This document shows positions 1 through 44,718 of a stretch of DNA of 64,000 nucleotides, piece by piece (position 1 is the first letter of the stretch; each line of letters opens with the position of its first letter). The position numbers were made by a program, and so were the translations under genes. Origin of the DNA: an uncultured Flavobacteriaceae bacterium (GTDB taxonomy: Bacteria > Bacteroidota > Bacteroidia > Flavobacteriales > Flavobacteriaceae); the NCBI GenBank assembly GCA_947504035.1, contig CANNGA010000020.1:1-64000 (forward strand), in the 5' to 3' direction. The notes below the pieces were generated by a model. It was not told the origin of the DNA, did no database searches, and saw nothing but the letters and a program-made list of their open reading frames with translations.

Positions 1-18
1 AATCTGTAAAAAATCCTT

Positions 19-26
19 TAGATTTG
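19..26 (+). promoter_or_regulatory. Bacteroidota-type -7 box (TAGATTTG)
   Basis: TAGATTTG is an exact match to the TAnnTTTG element of flavobacterial promoters. It lies 73 bases before the preferred start of the first gene, and a transcript would begin just before the 28-bp palindrome at 42-69. The -33 TTG half would fall outside the window, so the promoter cannot be checked fully. Confidence 0.45.
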
Positions 27-41
27 TGAAACACATACATG

Positions 42-69
42 AGATATATGTGCAATTGCACATATATCT
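42..69. repeat. Perfect 28-bp palindrome in a 5' leader
   Basis: The 28 bases read identically on both strands (AGATATATGTGCAA on the left arm, its exact complement on the right). It lies between the -7 box at 19-26 and the ATG at 99, so it could be a dyad operator bound by a dimeric repressor or a hairpin at the very 5' end of the mRNA. No T-run follows, so it is not an intrinsic terminator. Confidence 0.7.
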
Positions 70-37273: not shown

Positions 37274-38041
37274 TTAGCCGCTTACAACCGATTTTATAAA
37301 GTGATCTATAGTGTGTACACCGTGCTTTGTCACATGTTTTACAAATGCACTCCCTATAATGGCACCCTTAGCATACTTAGTAGCTTCTGTAAATGTAGCA
37401 TTGTTGCTAATGCCAAAACCGATTATTTGTGGGTTTTTTAGTTTCATTTTAGCAATACGTTCAAAGTAAGCAGCTTGTTCGTCTCCAAACCCTGTTTTAG
37501 CACCTGTTGTACTGGCGCTACTTACCATGTAGATAAAGCCATTAGAAACAGAGTCTATAAACGCGATACGTTCTGCTGAGGTTTGTGGTGTAATTAAGAA
37601 CACATTAATTAAACCGTAGGCTTCAAACGTGGCTTGGTATTCCTCATGGTATACATCTACAGGAAGGTCTGGAATGATAAGACCATCAATGCCTATTTCA
37701 TTACATTTTTTACAGAAGGCTTCGATGCCATACTGAAACATTGGGTTAAAATAGCCCATGATAATTAATGGGATGTTTACAGATTTACGAATATCTTTTA
37801 ATTGTTCGAAAAGCACCTCTGTAGTCATGCCGTTTTTAAGAGCGGCAGTAGAGCTATCTTGTATGGTAGGACCATCTGCTAAGGGATCACTAAAAGGCAA
37901 TCCTATTTCAATCATATCAACACCGCTGTTTTCAAGGTTTTTTATAATGGTAACAGTATCATCAATATTAGGATACCCTGCCGTGAAGTATATCGATACT
38001 AATTTTTTGTCTTCTTGTAATTTATTCTGAATTCGGTTCAT
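37274..38041 (-). CDS. trpA: Tryptophan synthase alpha chain
   Basis: 255 residues. It cleaves indole-3-glycerol phosphate to indole and glyceraldehyde-3-phosphate, passing indole to TrpB. Visible: YFTAGYPNIDD, the catalytic glutamate in DMIEIGLPFSDPLADGPTIQ with its aspartate partner in the same string, IIPDLPVDVYHEE, LITPQTSAERI, YMVSSASTTGAK, and IGFGISN for phosphate binding. It is the last gene of the trp operon, 108 bases after trpF-trpB; the spacer is unusually long and GC-rich (38066-38148). Confidence 0.96.
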   Translation of the reverse strand: MNRIQNKLQEDKKLVSIYFTAGYPNIDDTVTIIKNLENSGVDMIEIGLPFSDPLADGPTIQDSSTAALKNGMTTEVLFEQLKDIRKSVNIPLIIMGYFNPMFQYGIEAFCKKCNEIGIDGLIIPDLPVDVYHEEYQATFEAYGLINVFLITPQTSAERIAFIDSVSNGFIYMVSSASTTGAKTGFGDEQAAYFERIAKMKLKNPQIIGFGISNNATFTEATKYAKGAIIGSAFVKHVTKHGVHTIDHFIKSVVSG

Positions 38042-38065
38042 TTTCTTTTATGTGCTAAAGGTGCC

Positions 38066-38148
38066 TTTTGCGTTAGGGATAGAGCGTTTGTTGAAGCGCC
38101 TCGTAGAGCGCGACTCGCGAAAGCCCGACCCTTGGGGAACGCCCAAGT
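38066..38148. repeat. GC-rich intergenic element in the trp operon
   Basis: A spacer between trpFB and trpA that is far richer in G+C than any other intergenic DNA here, with strings GCGCGACTCGCGAAAGCCC and GACCCTTGGGGAACGCCC. From memory, similar GC-rich, REP-like strings are dispersed in some flavobacterial genomes. It is present once in this window, so repetitiveness cannot be shown. Confidence 0.45.
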
Positions 38149-38149
38149 T

Positions 38150-39976
38150 TTAAAATTTAAAATAATCGATATAGTTTTGTAAATCTTTATCTCCTCTTCC
38201 AGATAAACTCATTACAACAACATCGTCTGGTTTAAAGGTTTTATGTTTAAAAATGGCAAACGCATGTGAGGTTTCTATGGCTGGAATGATACCTTCTAAT
38301 TTAGAGAGCTCTAAACCAGCTTCCATAGCGTCGCTATCGGTAATGGATAAAAATTCGGCACGTCCTGTCTTAGAGAGGTGGGCGTGCATTGGGCCAACTC
38401 CAGGATAATCTAAACCTGCAGATATGGAATACGGTTCTGTAATTTGACCATCTTCTGTCTGCATTAATAAGGTTTTACACCCATGTATAATACCTTCTTT
38501 TCCTAATACAGATGTTGCAGCACTTTCGCCAGAGTCAATGCCTAACCCAGCTGCCTCTACTGCTATTATGCCAACACTCTCTTCGTGCAAATAATGGTAA
38601 TATGTACCTGCGGCATTACTACCACCTCCAATACAGGCCACAACGTAGTCTGGATTTTCTCGGCCTTCTTGTGCTTTTAATTGCCATTTAATTTCTTCAG
38701 ATATGACAGCTTGAAAGCGTGTTACCATATCTGGGTATGGGTGAGGCCCAATAGCAGAACCTATAATATAATGCGTGTCAACAGGATTATTAATCCAATC
38801 GCGAATGGCTTCGTTTGTGGCATCTTTTAAGGTGCGACTTCCAGATAATGCAGGTACAACGGTAGCACCAAGCATTTTCATTCGCGCCACATTAGGCGCT
38901 TGTCGTGCAATATCGATTTCACCCATATAAACGATACATTCCATACCCATAAGGGCACAAACGGTAGCAGTGGCAACACCGTGCTGTCCTGCGCCTGTTT
39001 CTGCGATAATTCTGTGTTTCCCTAAACGTTTGGCCATTAATATTTGACCAATGGTATTGTTTATTTTATGCGCTCCTGTGTGGTTAAGATCTTCGCGTTT
39101 GAGGTAAATTTTAGTGTTGTATTTTTCAGAAAGACGCTTTGCAAAATATAGGGGAGAAGGGCGTCCAACATAATCTTTTAATAGTTTGTTGAATTCCTTT
39201 TGAAAATCGGGCTCGCCCATTATTTTCAAATAGTTTTGGCGCAACTCTTCTACATTGGGGTATAGCATTTCTGGAATGTAAGCGCCTCCAAATTCACCGT
39301 AATAGCCTTTGTCGTTAACGTTATAATTCTGCATGTCTTTATTAGGACTTAGTTTCATTTTAAATTCTCTTAAACTCGCACTGTTTTTTAAGCCAGGTTC
39401 TGTTTCAAATTTACTGTTTACATCTAGTGCATAACAATATTTAGAAGCGCTACTTGCTTTAAATGCTTTTAGAGCTTCTACTTGTTCTAAGCCAATACCA
39501 CCACTTAAAAAGAAGGGTTTGGTAGAGGGGTAGGCTTCTAATAAGCTCCAATCGAAGGTATACCCATTACCGCCAGGTAATTTGCCTTTGGTATCGAAAA
39601 GGTAGTAGTCGCATAAATCTTCATAAGGCTCTAAAACCTTAAAATTAAAGCCTTCTTTTACAGAAAAGACTTTTATAATATCTAAAGGTTTAGAAATGAG
39701 TTTGGTATTGCGTAGAATACTGCAGTAATAGGGCGCTTCTTCTCCGTGGAGTTGTACCGCTTGAAGATCGAATTTATTTACTTTTTCTATAACGGTATTG
39801 AGATCTTCATTTACAAAAACACCTACTTTTTTAATGCTTTTAGGAAGATCAGGTATTTTAGTATCAAAATGTCTAGGTGTTTTTTCATAAAATATAAAGC
39901 CAAGATAGTCGGGTTGCAATGCTGCAACTTGTGCTATATTATCTTGGTATTTCATTCCGCATACTTTTAATTTCAT
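38150..39976 (-). CDS. trpFB: Fused phosphoribosylanthranilate isomerase - tryptophan synthase beta chain
   Basis: 608 residues, two complete enzymes in one frame. Residues 1 to about 208 are Trp[13 protein letters not shown] with the catalytic cysteine, [38 protein letters not shown]. Residues 215-608 are Trp[26 protein letters not shown] lysine in [35 protein letters not shown] and LSGRGDKD. The junction is [13 protein letters not shown] with no stop codon. The former TrpB start survives as M215 (ATG 39334), so free TrpB could still be made internally. It overlaps trpC by 4 bases. Confidence 0.93.
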
Positions 39977-40758
39977 AGCTCTAAATCTTTAATGAAGGTT
40001 TTAGCATTTGCACCAGGATTATCGGTTTTCATAAAGTTTTCTCCTATTAAAAAGCCTTGGTACCCATAGGGTTTTAAACTTTTAATGGCTTCGGTATTGC
40101 TTATACCACTTTCAGATACTTTTACAAACTCGTCTGGAATACGCGTGCTTAATTCTTTACTCGTTTCTAAACTGACTTCAAATGTTTTTAAATTTCTATT
40201 ATTTACGCCTAACATGTCTATACTAGGCATTATAGATTTTTGCAATTCGGCTTCGTTATGAACTTCTAAAAGTACGTCTAAATGCAGCTGTTTTGCAAAT
40301 TCAGAAAATTGCTTTATTTCTGCTTTGGTAAGTATGGCTGCAATAAGCAGAATAACATCGGCACCATAAGCTTTGGCTTCCAATATTTGGTAGTCATCGA
40401 TTATAAATTCTTTTCTTAAAAGCGGTAAATTACAGCTGGCTCTTGCCGTTAGCAAATCGTCTAAAGCACCACCAAAATACTTGCCATCTGTTAACACAGA
40501 CATACCACACACACCAGCATCTTCATAGCCTTTTGCAACGTCTTGTACATTTAGCGAATGGTTAATGACTGCTTTAGATGGAGACCGGCGTTTGTGTTCT
40601 GCAATAATGCCAGAGGCGCTATGTCTTAGCTTATGGGCTAAAGATACTGTTTGGCGTTCAAATAGTACCGACTGCTCCAATTGAGACGTAGGGATTAATC
40701 CCTTTCTCAAGTCGACTTCTTTGCGTTTATCTCGTGTTATTTGGTCTAAAATATTCAT
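39973..40758 (-). CDS. trpC: Indole-3-glycerol-phosphate synthase
   Basis: 261 residues, a stand-alone TrpC (not fused to TrpF as in enterobacteria). It closes the indole ring from carboxyphenylaminodeoxyribulose phosphate. Motifs: [15 protein letters not shown] with the catalytic lysine, [56 protein letters not shown]. Stop and start overlap the next gene (ATGA type), indicating translational coupling. Confidence 0.95.
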
Positions 40759-40849
40759 ACCTCTTTTTGTACTTTTTATGACGTATAGGAACTTCTAAAA
40801 GTATTAGAAATTAAGACGTTACTTGTTATATTACAAGCGTTTTTTATTA

Positions 40850-41842
40850 TTATTTACTCAACGCTATTAAGCGTTCTAAACTGGCTTTTGCTTTGCCTGA
40901 ATGCAGGGAGGCTTTAGCAAGCTCAAAGCCTTCTTGATGCGATATTTGTTTTGTAGTTGCAATAGCTAAACCTGCATTGGCACAAACCACATTGTTTTGA
41001 GCTTCTGTACCATCACCATTAATAATAGCTACAAATATTTTAGCAGCATCTTTAATCGATTCGCCTCCAAATATGGCATTTTGAGCTATAGGTTGTACGC
41101 CTAAATCTTCGGGCGTAAAAAGTTTTTCTGTATGGTTAGATACAATTTTAGCACTACCTGTTAGTGAGATTTCATCGTAACCATCTAAAGCAAACACGAT
41201 GTTATAATTGGTTTGCGTATTTTGATACACAAAACTATACAAACGTAAAAGCTCTAAATTATAAACGCCTAACATTTGATTTTTAGGAAATGAAGGGTTG
41301 ACCATAGGGCCTAACATGTTAAAAAATGTTTTAACGCCTAAGGCTTTTCGAATAGGAGCTACATTTTTCATGGCAGGATGAAACAGGGGCGCATGTAAAA
41401 TGCATATGCCTGCTTTGTCGAGACAACGTTGTAAAAAACTTTCATTATTTGAGAACTTTACTCCCAAATGTTCCATTACATTTGATGAACCAGAGGTTGA
41501 GGACACACCATAATTACCGTGTTTGGATACATGAACACCAGCACCTGCTGTGATGAAGGCAGATAACGTAGAGATGTTAAATGTGTTTTTCCCATCGCCT
41601 CCCGTGCCTACAATATCAACAGCATTAAAATTGCTAAGATCTACGGGGATACACAATTCTAAAAGCGCATCTCTAAAGCCTTGAAATTCTTCTATAGTAA
41701 TACTACGCATCATATAAACCGATAGGAAACAAGCGATCTGGCTAGGGTTGTACAAATCATTAGAAATATTAAAAATGATGTGTTTGGCCTCCTCAGTAGA
41801 TAAAGTTTCGTGATTTATAAGTCTGTTTAAAACGTCTTTCAT
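40850..41842 (-). CDS. trpD: Anthranilate phosphoribosyltransferase
   Basis: 330 residues. It transfers phosphoribose from PRPP to anthranilate. The diphosphate-binding loop VGTGGDGKNTFNIST is intact, as are KHGNYGVSSTSGSSNVME, FHPAMKNVAPIRKALGVKTFFNMLGPMVNP and the acidic metal pair in GYDEISLTG. It is not fused to trpG, unlike in enterobacteria. Gaps to trpG and trpC are 70 and 91 bases. Confidence 0.95.
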   Translation of the reverse strand: MKDVLNRLINHETLSTEEAKHIIFNISNDLYNPSQIACFLSVYMMRSITIEEFQGFRDALLELCIPVDLSNFNAVDIVGTGGDGKNTFNISTLSAFITAGAGVHVSKHGNYGVSSTSGSSNVMEHLGVKFSNNESFLQRCLDKAGICILHAPLFHPAMKNVAPIRKALGVKTFFNMLGPMVNPSFPKNQMLGVYNLELLRLYSFVYQNTQTNYNIVFALDGYDEISLTGSAKIVSNHTEKLFTPEDLGVQPIAQNAIFGGESIKDAAKIFVAIINGDGTEAQNNVVCANAGLAIATTKQISHQEGFELAKASLHSGKAKASLERLIALSK

Positions 41843-41912
41843 TCGCTTTATAACCCTCTTTTATTTAGAGGGAGTATTTTGTTTGTTAATATTATAGTTG
41901 TGTTCTTATATG

Positions 41913-42488
41913 TTAAGCAGGCTCTGCATTGACCCAGTTTTCTAATATTTTTTTACCATCTGGAGTAAGTACAGATTCTGGGTGGTATTGTACGCCTCTT
42001 ACATCGTAAACTTTATGTCTTAAGGACATGACTTGTCCATTTTCATCAAAAGAAGTAGCTTCTAAACTATCGGGGAGGTCTGCACTAACTACCCAAGAGT
42101 GGTAACGCCCTATTTCTATAGTTTTGTCGAGTCCTTCAAAGAGGTATTCGTCGTCTACTGAAATTGTAACAGGTGTTGCCACACCATGATATACTTCGTC
42201 TAGGTTAATAAGTGTGCCTCCAAAGACTTCACCTATGGCTTGTTGCCCTAAACACACCCCTAGAATACGTTTTGAAGCCGCATATTTTTCTATAATAGGT
42301 TTTAATAAACCTGCTTCGTCTGGAATTCCAGGCCCTGGTGATAATACAATTTTATCGAAAGGCGCGACGTCCTCTAGGTTTAGCTTGTCATTTCTTACAA
42401 CAGTAACCTCACAATTTAAATCTTCTAAATAGTGTACAAGGTTGTAAGTAAAACTATCGTAGTTATCTATTACTAATACTTTTTTCAT
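41913..42488 (-). CDS. trpG: Anthranilate synthase glutamine amidotransferase component
   Basis: 191 residues, class I amidotransferase that feeds ammonia to TrpE. The catalytic triad is visible: C79 in GVCLGQQAIGEVFGG, H169 and E171 in VQYHPESVLT. N-terminal VLVIDNYDSFTYNLVHYLE and LSPGPGIPDEAG are typical. It may also serve para-aminobenzoate synthase. 52 bases after the NTR-like gene. Confidence 0.95.
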   Translation of the reverse strand: MKKVLVIDNYDSFTYNLVHYLEDLNCEVTVVRNDKLNLEDVAPFDKIVLSPGPGIPDEAGLLKPIIEKYAASKRILGVCLGQQAIGEVFGGTLINLDEVYHGVATPVTISVDDEYLFEGLDKTIEIGRYHSWVVSADLPDSLEATSFDENGQVMSLRHKVYDVRGVQYHPESVLTPDGKKILENWVNAEPA

Positions 42489-42540: not shown

Positions 42541-43014
42541 TTATTTTAGTTTGCATTTAAGTTTTTTCAATGTTTTTAATTCTTCTTTTACAGCTGTATG
42601 CAGTACTTTATTTCTGTCGCACAAGCTGGTTACATAATCTGTAGCGTGTTGTGTTGAACGGGCATAGGTTGTTGCCGATTTAGCGTACACGAGATACGAC
42701 GTTCCTAATTTAAATTTATAGCCACAACTGGCACTGCTTGAAGCAGAGACAATCTCTATGGTGTCTGTTTTTAGTTTACCTTTAAAATATTTTGATACTT
42801 TAAACGTGTATACAATGGGATCTGCAGAAGAAATATAGTTGCCTTTCGATATTTTTTTTATGCCTACAACCGTAGCATTTATAATGACATCTGCTTTACT
42901 AAAAGCATTTTTTACTTTTTCTACAAGAGGCGCATTAGTTTCAATACAACTACAGGCAAATGCGCTTGTGCTTCCTAGAAACACGATTAAAACTGAAAGA
43001 ATGTAAGTTTTCAT
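42541..43014 (-). CDS. Secreted NTR/TIMP-like cysteine protein inside the trp operon
   Basis: 157 residues. Signal peptide (YILSVLIVFLGSTSAFA) ending at CSC, so mature protein would begin CSCIETNAP. The N-terminal CxC followed by ADVIINATVVGI, VYTFKVSKYFKGK and SASCGYKFKLGTSYLVYA is the pattern of netrin/TIMP-like OB-fold (NTR) domains: an exposed CxC N-terminus and a later paired cysteine. It is likely periplasmic or extracellular. It sits between trpE (21-base gap) and trpG (52-base gap) on the same strand and should be co-transcribed, although no link with tryptophan synthesis is known to me. Function unknown. Confidence 0.75.
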   Translation of the reverse strand: MKTYILSVLIVFLGSTSAFACSCIETNAPLVEKVKNAFSKADVIINATVVGIKKISKGNYISSADPIVYTFKVSKYFKGKLKTDTIEIVSASSSASCGYKFKLGTSYLVYAKSATTYARSTQHATDYVTSLCDRNKVLHTAVKEELKTLKKLKCKLK

Positions 43015-43035: not shown

Positions 43036-44442
43036 TTAAATGTCCTTTGCTAGAGTAATCGCTTTGGTTAGCGCACCTAGTTTATTAAATACTTCTTGTA
43101 ATTCGTCTTCTTTTTTAGATTTTGAAACTAAACCAGCACCTGCTTGCCAATTAAGCGTATAATCTTTACTTAAAAAGGTACGAATCATAATAGCGTGGTT
43201 AAAATTACCATCAAAATCCATAAAACCAATGGCGCCACCATAAAAGCTTCGACTTGTTTTTTCATAAGTTTCTATAAGTTGCATGGCTCTGTGCTTTGGC
43301 GCACCACTTAAGGTCCCTGCAGGAAATGTATCTGCAACGACTTGCATGGTAGAGGTGCTATCGTGTTTATGGCCTGTTACCTTACTTACTAAGTGGATGA
43401 CATGAGAGAAAAATTGAACTTCCCGATACGTTTCTACTTTTACTTGGCTACCGTGACGGCTTAAATCATTTCTAGCGAGATCGACAAGCATGACATGTTC
43501 TGCATTTTCTTTATCGTCTTTCTTTAGTTTTTCGGCTAGAAGTTCGTCTTTCTGTTCGTCTCCAGTTCTTTTAAAAGTACCTGCAATAGGATGAATTTCG
43601 GCCAAACCATCTGTTACAATAAGTTGTGCTTCTGGAGAACTTCCAAATATTTTAAAGTCACCGTAATCGAAATAGAACAGATAAGGTGAAGGGTTAATAC
43701 TTCTTAAAGCGCGATAGATATTAAAGTCGTCTCCCGTATATTCTTGAGAAAAACGTCTTGAAAGCACCAATTGAAACACATCACCTCGTGCACAGTGTTT
43801 TTTGGCAAGGTCTACATGGTCTCTAAATTCATCATCTGTTAAGTTGGATTGGATATCACCTTTAACATCAAAATTATACGATGCAAAATTTTGAACATTA
43901 ATGAGTTTATCTATAGCGTCTATATTATTCTCATTATCCTCATAGCAATGCGCAAAAATATAAGCTTCATTTTTATAATGATTTATCGCGATGATGTTTT
44001 TGTAAACCGCATAGTAAATGTCTGGAATGGTAACAGAATCTTCTTTTTTACTAATCTCGACATCTTCGAAATACCGAACAGCATCATAAGCTGTATAACC
44101 AAAAATACCATTATTGATAAACTTAAAGTGCTTTTCGGATTTGGTGTCGAATCTTTTGGTAAAGTTGTAAATCTCGTCAACAACATTAGTGGTGTCGGTA
44201 ATCTCTAAAGTGGTACTGCTACCATCAGGAAATGTTTGAGAGATGACCTCATTTTCTACTTTTATTGTAGCGATAGGATTAAAGCAGATGTATGAGAAGT
44301 TTTTGTGATTTCTATGGTAATCACCACTCTCTAATAAGATGCTATTAGGGTATTTATCTCGTATTTTATAATAAACGGTTACCGGAGTAATAGTATCGGT
44401 TAAAATTCTTTTATGATGTGTATAAAGACTAAATTTTTCCAT
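43036..44442 (-). CDS. trpE: Anthranilate synthase component I
   Basis: 468 residues from ATG 44442; the frame runs back to a TTG at 44481 but those codons overlap the end of the attenuator region. It converts chorismate and ammonia to anthranilate. Motifs: LLESGDYHRNHKNFSYI (tryptophan feedback site region), FGYTAYDAVRYFED, FQLVLSRRF, NPSPYLFYFDYGD, IAGTFKRTGDEQKD, LVDLARNDLSRHG, FPAGTLSGAPKHRAMQLI and YGGAIGFMDFDG. First enzyme of the operon; controlled by the leader described at 44484-44606. Confidence 0.96.
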   Translation of the reverse strand: MEKFSLYTHHKRILTDTITPVTVYYKIRDKYPNSILLESGDYHRNHKNFSYICFNPIATIKVENEVISQTFPDGSSTTLEITDTTNVVDEIYNFTKRFDTKSEKHFKFINNGIFGYTAYDAVRYFEDVEISKKEDSVTIPDIYYAVYKNIIAINHYKNEAYIFAHCYEDNENNIDAIDKLINVQNFASYNFDVKGDIQSNLTDDEFRDHVDLAKKHCARGDVFQLVLSRRFSQEYTGDDFNIYRALRSINPSPYLFYFDYGDFKIFGSSPEAQLIVTDGLAEIHPIAGTFKRTGDEQKDELLAEKLKKDDKENAEHVMLVDLARNDLSRHGSQVKVETYREVQFFSHVIHLVSKVTGHKHDSTSTMQVVADTFPAGTLSGAPKHRAMQLIETYEKTSRSFYGGAIGFMDFDGNFNHAIMIRTFLSKDYTLNWQAGAGLVSKSKKEDELQEVFNKLGALTKAITLAKDI

Positions 44443-44483: not shown

Positions 44484-44515
44484 AAAAAGGCTTGTCGTGA
44501 AAGACAAGCCTTTTT
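44484..44515 (-). terminator. Attenuator terminator of the trp operon
   Basis: Perfect 13-bp stem (arms 44503-44515 and 44484-44496 in transcript order, AAAAAGGCTTGTC / GACAAGCCTTTTT, six-base loop) ending in five T on the minus strand. It lies 43 bases after the leader peptide stop and 41 bases before the trpE ATG, exactly where a transcription attenuator should be. Confidence 0.9.
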
Positions 44516-44558
44516 GATATTTTAAGATTAAATATACTAGGATTTTACTTCACGAAGT

Positions 44559-44606
44559 TTAATTTCGAAAGCACCACCACCAAGATATATTTAATATTGT
44601 GTTCAT
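44559..44606 (-). CDS. trpL: Trp operon leader peptide with three tandem Trp codons
   Basis: ATG at 44606, 15 codons, TAA at 44559-44561: MNTILNISWWWCFRN. Three consecutive TGG codons in a 15-residue peptide immediately upstream of an intrinsic terminator and trpE define a leader peptide: when charged tRNA-Trp is scarce, the ribosome should stall at TGG and favour readthrough. The promoter at 44628-44658 gives a 5' leader of about 15 bases. A 7-base complement exists between the region just after the stop (44549-44555) and the terminator loop/arm (44495-44501), but a full antiterminator fold needs computing. Confidence 0.88.
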   Translation of the reverse strand: MNTILNISWWWCFRN

Positions 44607-44627
44607 AAGATAAAAATTATAACGTAG

Positions 44628-44658
44628 CAAAGATAAAAACCAAAATAGTATTATACAA
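44628..44658 (-). promoter_or_regulatory. Promoter of the trp operon
   Basis: On the minus strand TTG (44658-44656), 20 bases, TATCTTTG (44635-44628): exact consensus spacing and sequence for a Bacteroidota housekeeping promoter. Transcription should start near 44621, 15 bases before the trpL ATG. Confidence 0.75.
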
Positions 44659-44681
44659 TCAATTCAGGCATATTTTTAATA

Positions 44682-44718
44682 AAAAAACGATCATAGTAAA
44701 TCTCTATGATCGTTTTTT
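44682..44718 (-). terminator. Terminator in front of the trp promoter
   Basis: Stem AAAAAACGATCATAG / CTATGATCGTTTTTT (arms 44682-44696 and 44704-44718), loop of seven. It lies in a divergent gap where no annotated gene ends, so it implies a transcript arriving from upstream on the minus strand: the small gene at 44791-44880. Confidence 0.85.

Follow-up and report, generated by a model that had tools for sequence, protein, structure and literature searches.

A Bacteroid-trp (RF01692) leader upstream of trpE in a flavobacterium: a probable ribosome-mediated transcription attenuator with a conserved antiterminator strand

Introduction

The trpL leader of E. coli carries an ORF with two Trp codons and forms mutually exclusive helices, designated 1:2, 2:3 and 3:4. 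A trp attenuator has also been described for trpL-trpE(G) of Sinorhizobium meliloti, which operates without transcriptional repression and whose leader ORF begins at the 5' end of the mRNA (PMC7298713). In Bacteroidota, whose mRNAs lack Shine-Dalgarno sequences (PMC6847099, PMC9976891), the Bacteroid-trp RNA was published in 2010 by Weinberg et al. (Table 1 of PMC2864571) and is held in Rfam as RF01692 under the title 'Bacteroidete tryptophan peptide leader RNA'. It has been noted upstream of the trp operon of F. psychrophilum and likened to the E. coli leader (PMC6414381), and a transcriptome study of this species reported strong clues for leader-peptide attenuation before amino-acid operons, in a main text that names neither tryptophan nor trpE (PMC9723704). 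The literature searched yielded no account of a Bacteroid-trp antiterminator, most subscription journals lying outside its coverage. Attenuators of Bacteroidetes may already have been treated in Vitreschak 2004 or in Lopatovskaya 2010.

Here, a trp leader was analyzed in a 64-kb stretch of flavobacterial DNA (hereafter the window, meaning the whole stretch). An earlier sequence-only reading of this locus as a Trp-codon leader peptide followed by a transcription attenuator is backed by membership in RF01692, by conservation and by tests of the paired regions, and the element is very probably a ribosome-mediated (leader-peptide) transcription attenuator of the trp operon belonging to that family. 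The surprise then expressed at leader attenuation in a flavobacterium was unwarranted, as RF01692 was already catalogued for Bacteroidetes and papers on F. psychrophilum mention the element or attenuation. Because RF01692 has been in print since 2010, this kind of system was already known; it is its mechanism that is better resolved.

Results

The trp leader and operon of the window

Comparison of the whole window with all Rfam families at curated thresholds returned RF01692 as the only match; the element scores above the curated cut-off, its genome is of Bacteroidota, and trp genes follow it. GibS, Thr_leader, the trpB motif and other Rfam leads in the region all fell under their own gathering scores and were rejected. 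Promoter, leader ORF and terminator together span 44658-44484 on the minus strand, and sequence and comparison show the promoter box, the leader ORF, the terminator and both alternative helices (Table 1).

Table 1. Features of the trp leader and of the operon downstream; positions refer to the window.
Feature	Position	Strand	Basis
Probable -33 element TTG	44656..44658	-	Sequence; 20 nt upstream of -7 box
-7 box TATCTTTG, Bacteroidota sigma-A type (TAnnTTTG)	44628..44635	-	Sequence; consensus per PMC9723704
RF01692 Bacteroid-trp match, full length (1-131 of 131)	44503..44626	-	62.5 bits; gathering cut-off 49; E 2.8e-5
Leader ORF, 15 codons, MNTILNISWWWCFRN + TAA	44559..44606	-	Sequence, conservation
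Three consecutive Trp codons UGG UGG UGG	44574..44582	-	WWW in 106/109 and WW in 3/109 family loci
1:2 (protector) hairpin; 5' side with Trp codons, upper part with antiterminator strand	44527..44595	-	MFE fold; P 0.99-1.00 without ribosome; comparative support
Antiterminator strand UCGUGAAG	44548..44555	-	Comparison of loci and folding
UUUCACGA, terminator loop plus first two 3'-arm bases; antiterminator partner	44495..44502	-	Pairing and folding
Intrinsic terminator: perfect stem of 13 bp closed by the loop UUUCAC, with a U-rich run after it	44484..44515	-	Hairpin scan, fold, family loci
trpE, first gene of the controlled operon	43036..44442 (ATG at 44442)	-	Pfam Anth_synt_I_N + Chorismate_bind (PF04715, PF00425)
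Remaining operon: trpG, trpD, trpC, fused trpF-trpB, trpA	37274..42488	-	Pfam domains, ORFs

A Bacteroidota promoter, a 15-residue peptide with WWW and a perfect terminator followed by trpE had all been claimed from the sequence, and all were found: TTG and TATCTTTG are present with 20 nt between them, the ORF is there, and the 13-bp hairpin with its U-rich run precedes a trpE identified by Pfam. TTG is probably the -33 element, judged by the usual consensus and spacing. A TAnnTTTG box occurs no more than 45 nt from the leader start in 104 of the 109 RF01692 loci of the window's family. Since the sigma-A box, as mapped in F. psychrophilum, sits at -12..-5 (PMC9723704), transcription is predicted to start near 44623, which would leave a 5' UTR of about 17 nt in place of the 15 bases given in the earlier reading. 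The terminator is separated from trpE by 41 nt, and the end of the RF01692 match from the trpE start by 61 nt. The fold energy of the leader has a z of -6.0, with none of 200 shuffles equally good. Inspection by eye showed another hairpin, between runs of A and T, just upstream of the promoter (ca. 44681-44718) and absent from the hairpin-scan list; it could be a two-way terminator insulating the trp operon.

Among the 104 family loci with a recognizable box, the start codon follows the -7 box by 4-8 nt in 31, one of which (L017) probably has its box as a second, chance match; in 19 of the 104 the spacing is exactly 5 nt, which would place the start codon at +2. The context of the AUG in the window is poor in A (25% in the last 12 nt, versus a mean of 52%), as low or lower values being found in 18 of 108 relatives, and this is a point against strong initiation. 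The free fold also pairs bases around this AUG.

In the operon, trpE comes first and is followed by an ORF of 157 residues that matches TIMP, then by trpG, trpD, trpC, a trpF-trpB fusion and trpA. The fusion is a single 608-residue ORF (38150-39976, minus strand) with PRAI at residues 4-205 and PALP at 271-593. The TIMP-domain protein (E 1.1e-8; 42541-43014, minus strand), encoded between trpE and trpG, has a signal peptide by eye. Hyunsoonleella and Algibacter are among the closest TrpE matches (best 80 of 574), and the host is placed in Flavobacteriaceae near these two genera.

Trp leader peptides among relatives

RF01692 matches were found in 109 of 149 genomes of the window's family, 95 of them above the cut-off, as well as in 47 of 296 genomes of an order-level draw and 42 of 395 of a phylum-level draw, these draws overlapping with each other and with the family set. 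Among 14 control genomes, only Bacteroides ihuae gave a match. Conserved WW or WWW mini-ORFs upstream of trpE in relatives, which the sequence-only reading had proposed to look for, proved widespread. In the family, all 109 loci that match RF01692, the window being one of them, contain a short leader ORF with WWW (106) or WW (3); trpE was present in the fetched stretch for 108, the remaining one being at a contig end, and the script detected a terminator in 106. Loci L032, L060 and L070 were left out of the terminator and antiterminator counts, the reasons being a contig end, a U-run that is interrupted and a search range without a hairpin.

Twenty-five family genomes have trpE (E below 1e-15) and no RF01692 match, and 20 of these loci were fetched. 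A WW or WWW mini-ORF was present in 19, of which 18 have a terminator detected by script and one, L145, a terminator seen by eye; in L136 neither leader nor terminator was found. For other families of the class, upstream DNA was taken from 40 of 49 genomes with trpE, the nine others comprising four in the window's family, three already fetched via RF01692, one near a contig start (G826) and one with a stop inside the match (G902). A WW mini-ORF with a terminator was recovered by script in 23 of these 40 loci, versus 1 of 40 on the reverse strand. The other 17, sorted by eye, included four with WW or WWW (bringing the total to 27 of 40), six with WxW (WRW, WCW, WLW), three with a single W and four with no evident leader, for which the script found no terminator either, one of them being at a contig end. 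A terminator kept without the peptide would speak against the attenuator reading. The one same-family locus of 20 without a leader yielded no terminator either; the three single-Trp loci of other families, which keep a terminator, come nearest to a counter-example.

Related trpE loci in named genomes, taken as the best 80 of 574, contain WWW in 80 of 80 cases. It was found directly in 73 and further upstream in seven, because an ORF intervenes between terminator and trpE. This intervening ORF (L203:460-756, with the same place occupied in L219, L222, L223, L225, L230 and L270) encodes in L203 a 98-residue GIY-YIG protein (Pfam E 2.4e-16), the other six being alike by eye. At threshold, none of 14 hand-chosen divergent trp-leader loci matched any Rfam family. 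These counts indicate that the Rfam model of Bacteroid-trp under-calls trp attenuators of Bacteroidota.

Comparative evidence for the antiterminator

The sequence-only reading had noted a 7-base complement to the terminator loop, judged the antiterminator not obvious and supposed that the switch may use a different fold. That complement (44555-44549) is most likely part of a conserved antiterminator strand and, as shown below, compensatory changes in other families preserve its pairing. In the window itself, UCGUGAAG at 44555-44548 is complementary to UUUCACGA (44502-44495) with one G-U pair. When region 2 (taken from W+15 onward, counting from the first Trp codon) is paired with the terminator, the best duplex comprises 6 or more Watson-Crick pairs in 99 of 106 family loci, and starts at W+25..28, i.e. 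25-28 nt past the first Trp codon, in 103 of 106. At least 6 such pairs were likewise found in 72 of the 73 directly WWW loci among the best 80 of 574, L239 having only 4. Compensatory variants occur within the family (UCGCAA/UUGCGA in L082, GGAUUCAG/CUGAAUCC in L137) and outside it (CGGGGUUC/GAACCCCG in L174, CGCUGUGU/ACACAGCG in L176, and GAACAGCA/UGCUGUUC in both L161 and L163). In 10 of 31 outside-family loci the best duplex is confined to the loop and 3' arm, like that of the window, and in 21 it reaches the 5' arm, the classical side.

Pairing was assessed by a swap test, in which the best ungapped duplex of a segment downstream of the Trp codons with its own terminator was compared with those formed with the terminators of other loci. 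The set comprised 59 of 166 loci: 31 outside the family, i.e. all those with a script-found leader and terminator minus the near copies L116 and L118, and 28 of the family, i.e. the window, nine divergent loci hand-picked after the pairing had been seen, and 18 non-RF01692 loci in which the script detected a terminator, a condition that leaves out L136 and L145. L113 has no script-found hairpin. For segment W+20..35, own terminators scored 17.32 versus 12.10 for swapped ones in the 31 outside-family loci (z 9.5, 0/3000) and 16.39 versus 11.88 (s.d. 0.36) in all 59 (z 12.6, 0/3000). The test uses an ad hoc score and takes no account of the tree; a version with one locus per family (the lowest-numbered), which guards against relatedness, gave a z of 7.8 (n = 20, 0/20000). 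The signal was confined to windows overlapping W+16..W+43, and no excess was found for W+0..15, W+36..51 or the 16 nt that immediately precede the terminator (z -1.1 to -0.1).

The 1:2 helix also distinguished own from swapped partners (z -11.4, 0/5000), chiefly through W-15..12 with W+36..60 (z -8.1), W+18..40 contributing just -1.6. Because this signal comes mainly from W+36..60, the antiterminator strand occupies the upper part of this hairpin. Some loci fit less well. The antiterminator has 3 pairs in L140, 4 in L106, 5 in L108 and 5, with a low score, in L173; the best duplex lies at W+15 in L107 and outside the usual place at W+12 in L121 and W+44 in L180; L143 has its best-scoring duplex at W+40, with a 5-bp UCGUG/CACGA visible at the usual place; and the pairs of L150 and L185 are rich in G-U. 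The locus thus combines a Trp-codon ORF, a terminator between this ORF and trpE, and an antiterminator that comparison marks as mutually exclusive with the terminator.

Folding of leader transcripts

Without a ribosome, folding locked region 2 (P 0.99-1.00) and gave the antiterminator a P of at most 0.01. When a ribosome occupied the Trp codons and the RNA ended at 44495, P(antiterminator) was 0.88, and about 0.81 four bases later; with the ribosome at the stop codon it was 0.00. Two further nucleotides brought the stalled-ribosome value from about 0.81 to 0.00, and the terminator won in every state tried, its hairpin having an energy of -17.6 kcal/mol versus -8.3 kcal/mol for the antiterminator duplex. 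Folding of stalled versus free states, the check proposed with the sequence-only reading, yielded the antiterminator in short transcripts with a stalled ribosome, and the terminator prevailed once complete; a ribosome-freed antiterminator is supported only in transcripts short of the full terminator. Since the complete terminator wins at equilibrium in all states tried, the model needs kinetic control, and the folding suggests a switch that is kinetic in nature. When the entire leader was folded at equilibrium with the footprint of the ribosome masked, the terminator always resulted; this was considered as evidence against the antiterminator and rejected, as shorter transcripts give it a window of a few bases.

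Other candidate leaders in the genome

Elsewhere in the same genome, a candidate His leader peptide, MTFTQLHHHSHTCTQAS, and a terminator precede hisG (L196:1439-1492). A candidate leader peptide rich in Thr and Ile and ending in STILATTTSTITLWGF (L195, reverse complement from base 967) is followed by an ORF of 814 residues that contains a homoserine dehydrogenase domain. A candidate branched-chain leader peptide, MKNKFLNKNVGLVIVLKNQG, lies before ilvD (L197, from base 1302) with a terminator-like hairpin by eye. Because of these His, Thr/Ile and branched-chain candidates, leader-peptide attenuation may be general in this genome. Another open frame with this domain, of 1133 residues, is preceded by a SAM riboswitch (RF00162, 71.4 bits; L198:907-1034).

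Discussion

We infer translation of the leader ORF, ribosome stalling, readthrough and a kinetic switch, which would operate as follows. Transcription would start near 44623 and a ribosome would initiate at the AUG at 44606 without a Shine-Dalgarno sequence. When charged tRNA-Trp is ample, the ribosome would reach the stop codon and cover the antiterminator strand, or the 1:2 hairpin would lock it; with this strand unavailable, the terminator (44515-44484) would form and transcription would end. When charged tRNA-Trp is scarce, the ribosome would stall on UGG UGG UGG and open the base of the 1:2 hairpin, freeing UCGUGAAG to pair with the emerging terminator loop and the start of its 3' arm. 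Nucleation of the terminator would thereby be blocked long enough for the polymerase to cross the U-run into trpE.

That the complete terminator beats the antiterminator at equilibrium in every state tried would also suit a mechanism acting mainly by ribosome occlusion, in which the ribosome alters only the 1:2 hairpin and the complementarity between region 2 and the terminator is a by-product. A by-product pairing would not be maintained, however, and region 2 and the terminator co-vary across families of quite different sequence, with a signal only at W+16..W+43, which makes this account very unlikely. Control of the operon by another Trp sensor (TrpR repressor, TRAP or T-box), with the leader as a relic, is harder still to credit, and no evidence in its favour was found. 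The genome, 99.2% complete, gave no match to Trp_repressor (TrpR) and 0 to TRAP (TrpBP), whereas the controls, including Bacillus subtilis for TRAP, were positive; at Rfam thresholds the window contains no T-box match. Nor does a relic fit with a leader ORF kept in 109/109 RF01692 loci, 19/20 non-matching loci of the same family and 27/40 loci of other families.

A further option is a role in trans, besides attenuation, for the peptide or for the leader RNA released at the terminator, like that of peTrpL and rnTrpL in S. meliloti, a precedent in its favour (PMC7298713). Partly conserved residues before WWW (Thr in the first place in 86/109 loci, Asn or His in the second in 95/109) could be read in the same way; yet they overlap the 1:2 hairpin, so that RNA structure explains them equally, and the low synonymous share among differing codons before WWW (0.02-0.36) does not point to selection acting on the peptide itself. 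The N-T before WWW was rejected as a sign of a functional peptide, synonymous patterns giving it no support over RNA structure, and action in trans is considered unlikely.

Returning to the attenuator, we lean slightly towards a broader joint reading. It would be a class-wide trp attenuator of Bacteroidia of which RF01692 is only the easily recognized part; in Flavobacteriaceae, the antiterminator would take the terminator loop and the leading bases of the 3' arm, win for a few nucleotides only and be purely kinetic; and ribosomes would start without a Shine-Dalgarno sequence, in about 30% of relatives with a recognizable -7 box at no more than 4 bases from the mRNA 5' end. If this is true, tight coupling of transcription and translation would be needed from the first codons in this phylum. 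The Bacteroid-trp element is a natural probe of how closely translation trails transcription where Shine-Dalgarno sequences are lacking.

Compared with known systems, the leader resembles that of S. meliloti, by description rather than by comparison of the RNAs themselves, in being a trp attenuator without transcriptional repression and in having its ORF at the mRNA 5' end, a position predicted, give or take 4 nt, in about 30 of the 104 relatives; it belongs to a different phylum, and the 5' UTR in the window is predicted at 17 nt. With E. coli trpL, as generally described, it shares a Trp-codon ORF and exclusive helices. It differs in having three Trp codons instead of two and an antiterminator that pairs with the terminator loop and 3' arm, whereas that of E. 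coli pairs with the 5' arm; in addition, the window has no Rfam Trp_leader match at threshold and its genome no TrpR match. With RF01692 it has in common the sequence, the stem, the UGG-bearing 5' side, the start of the terminator 5' arm, the position upstream of trp genes and the occurrence in Bacteroidota. The Rfam model consists of one stem and ends within the terminator 5' arm, so that the full terminator and the antiterminator are both missing from it; the leader of the window has both, and the antiterminator, absent from that model, is now specified to the base.
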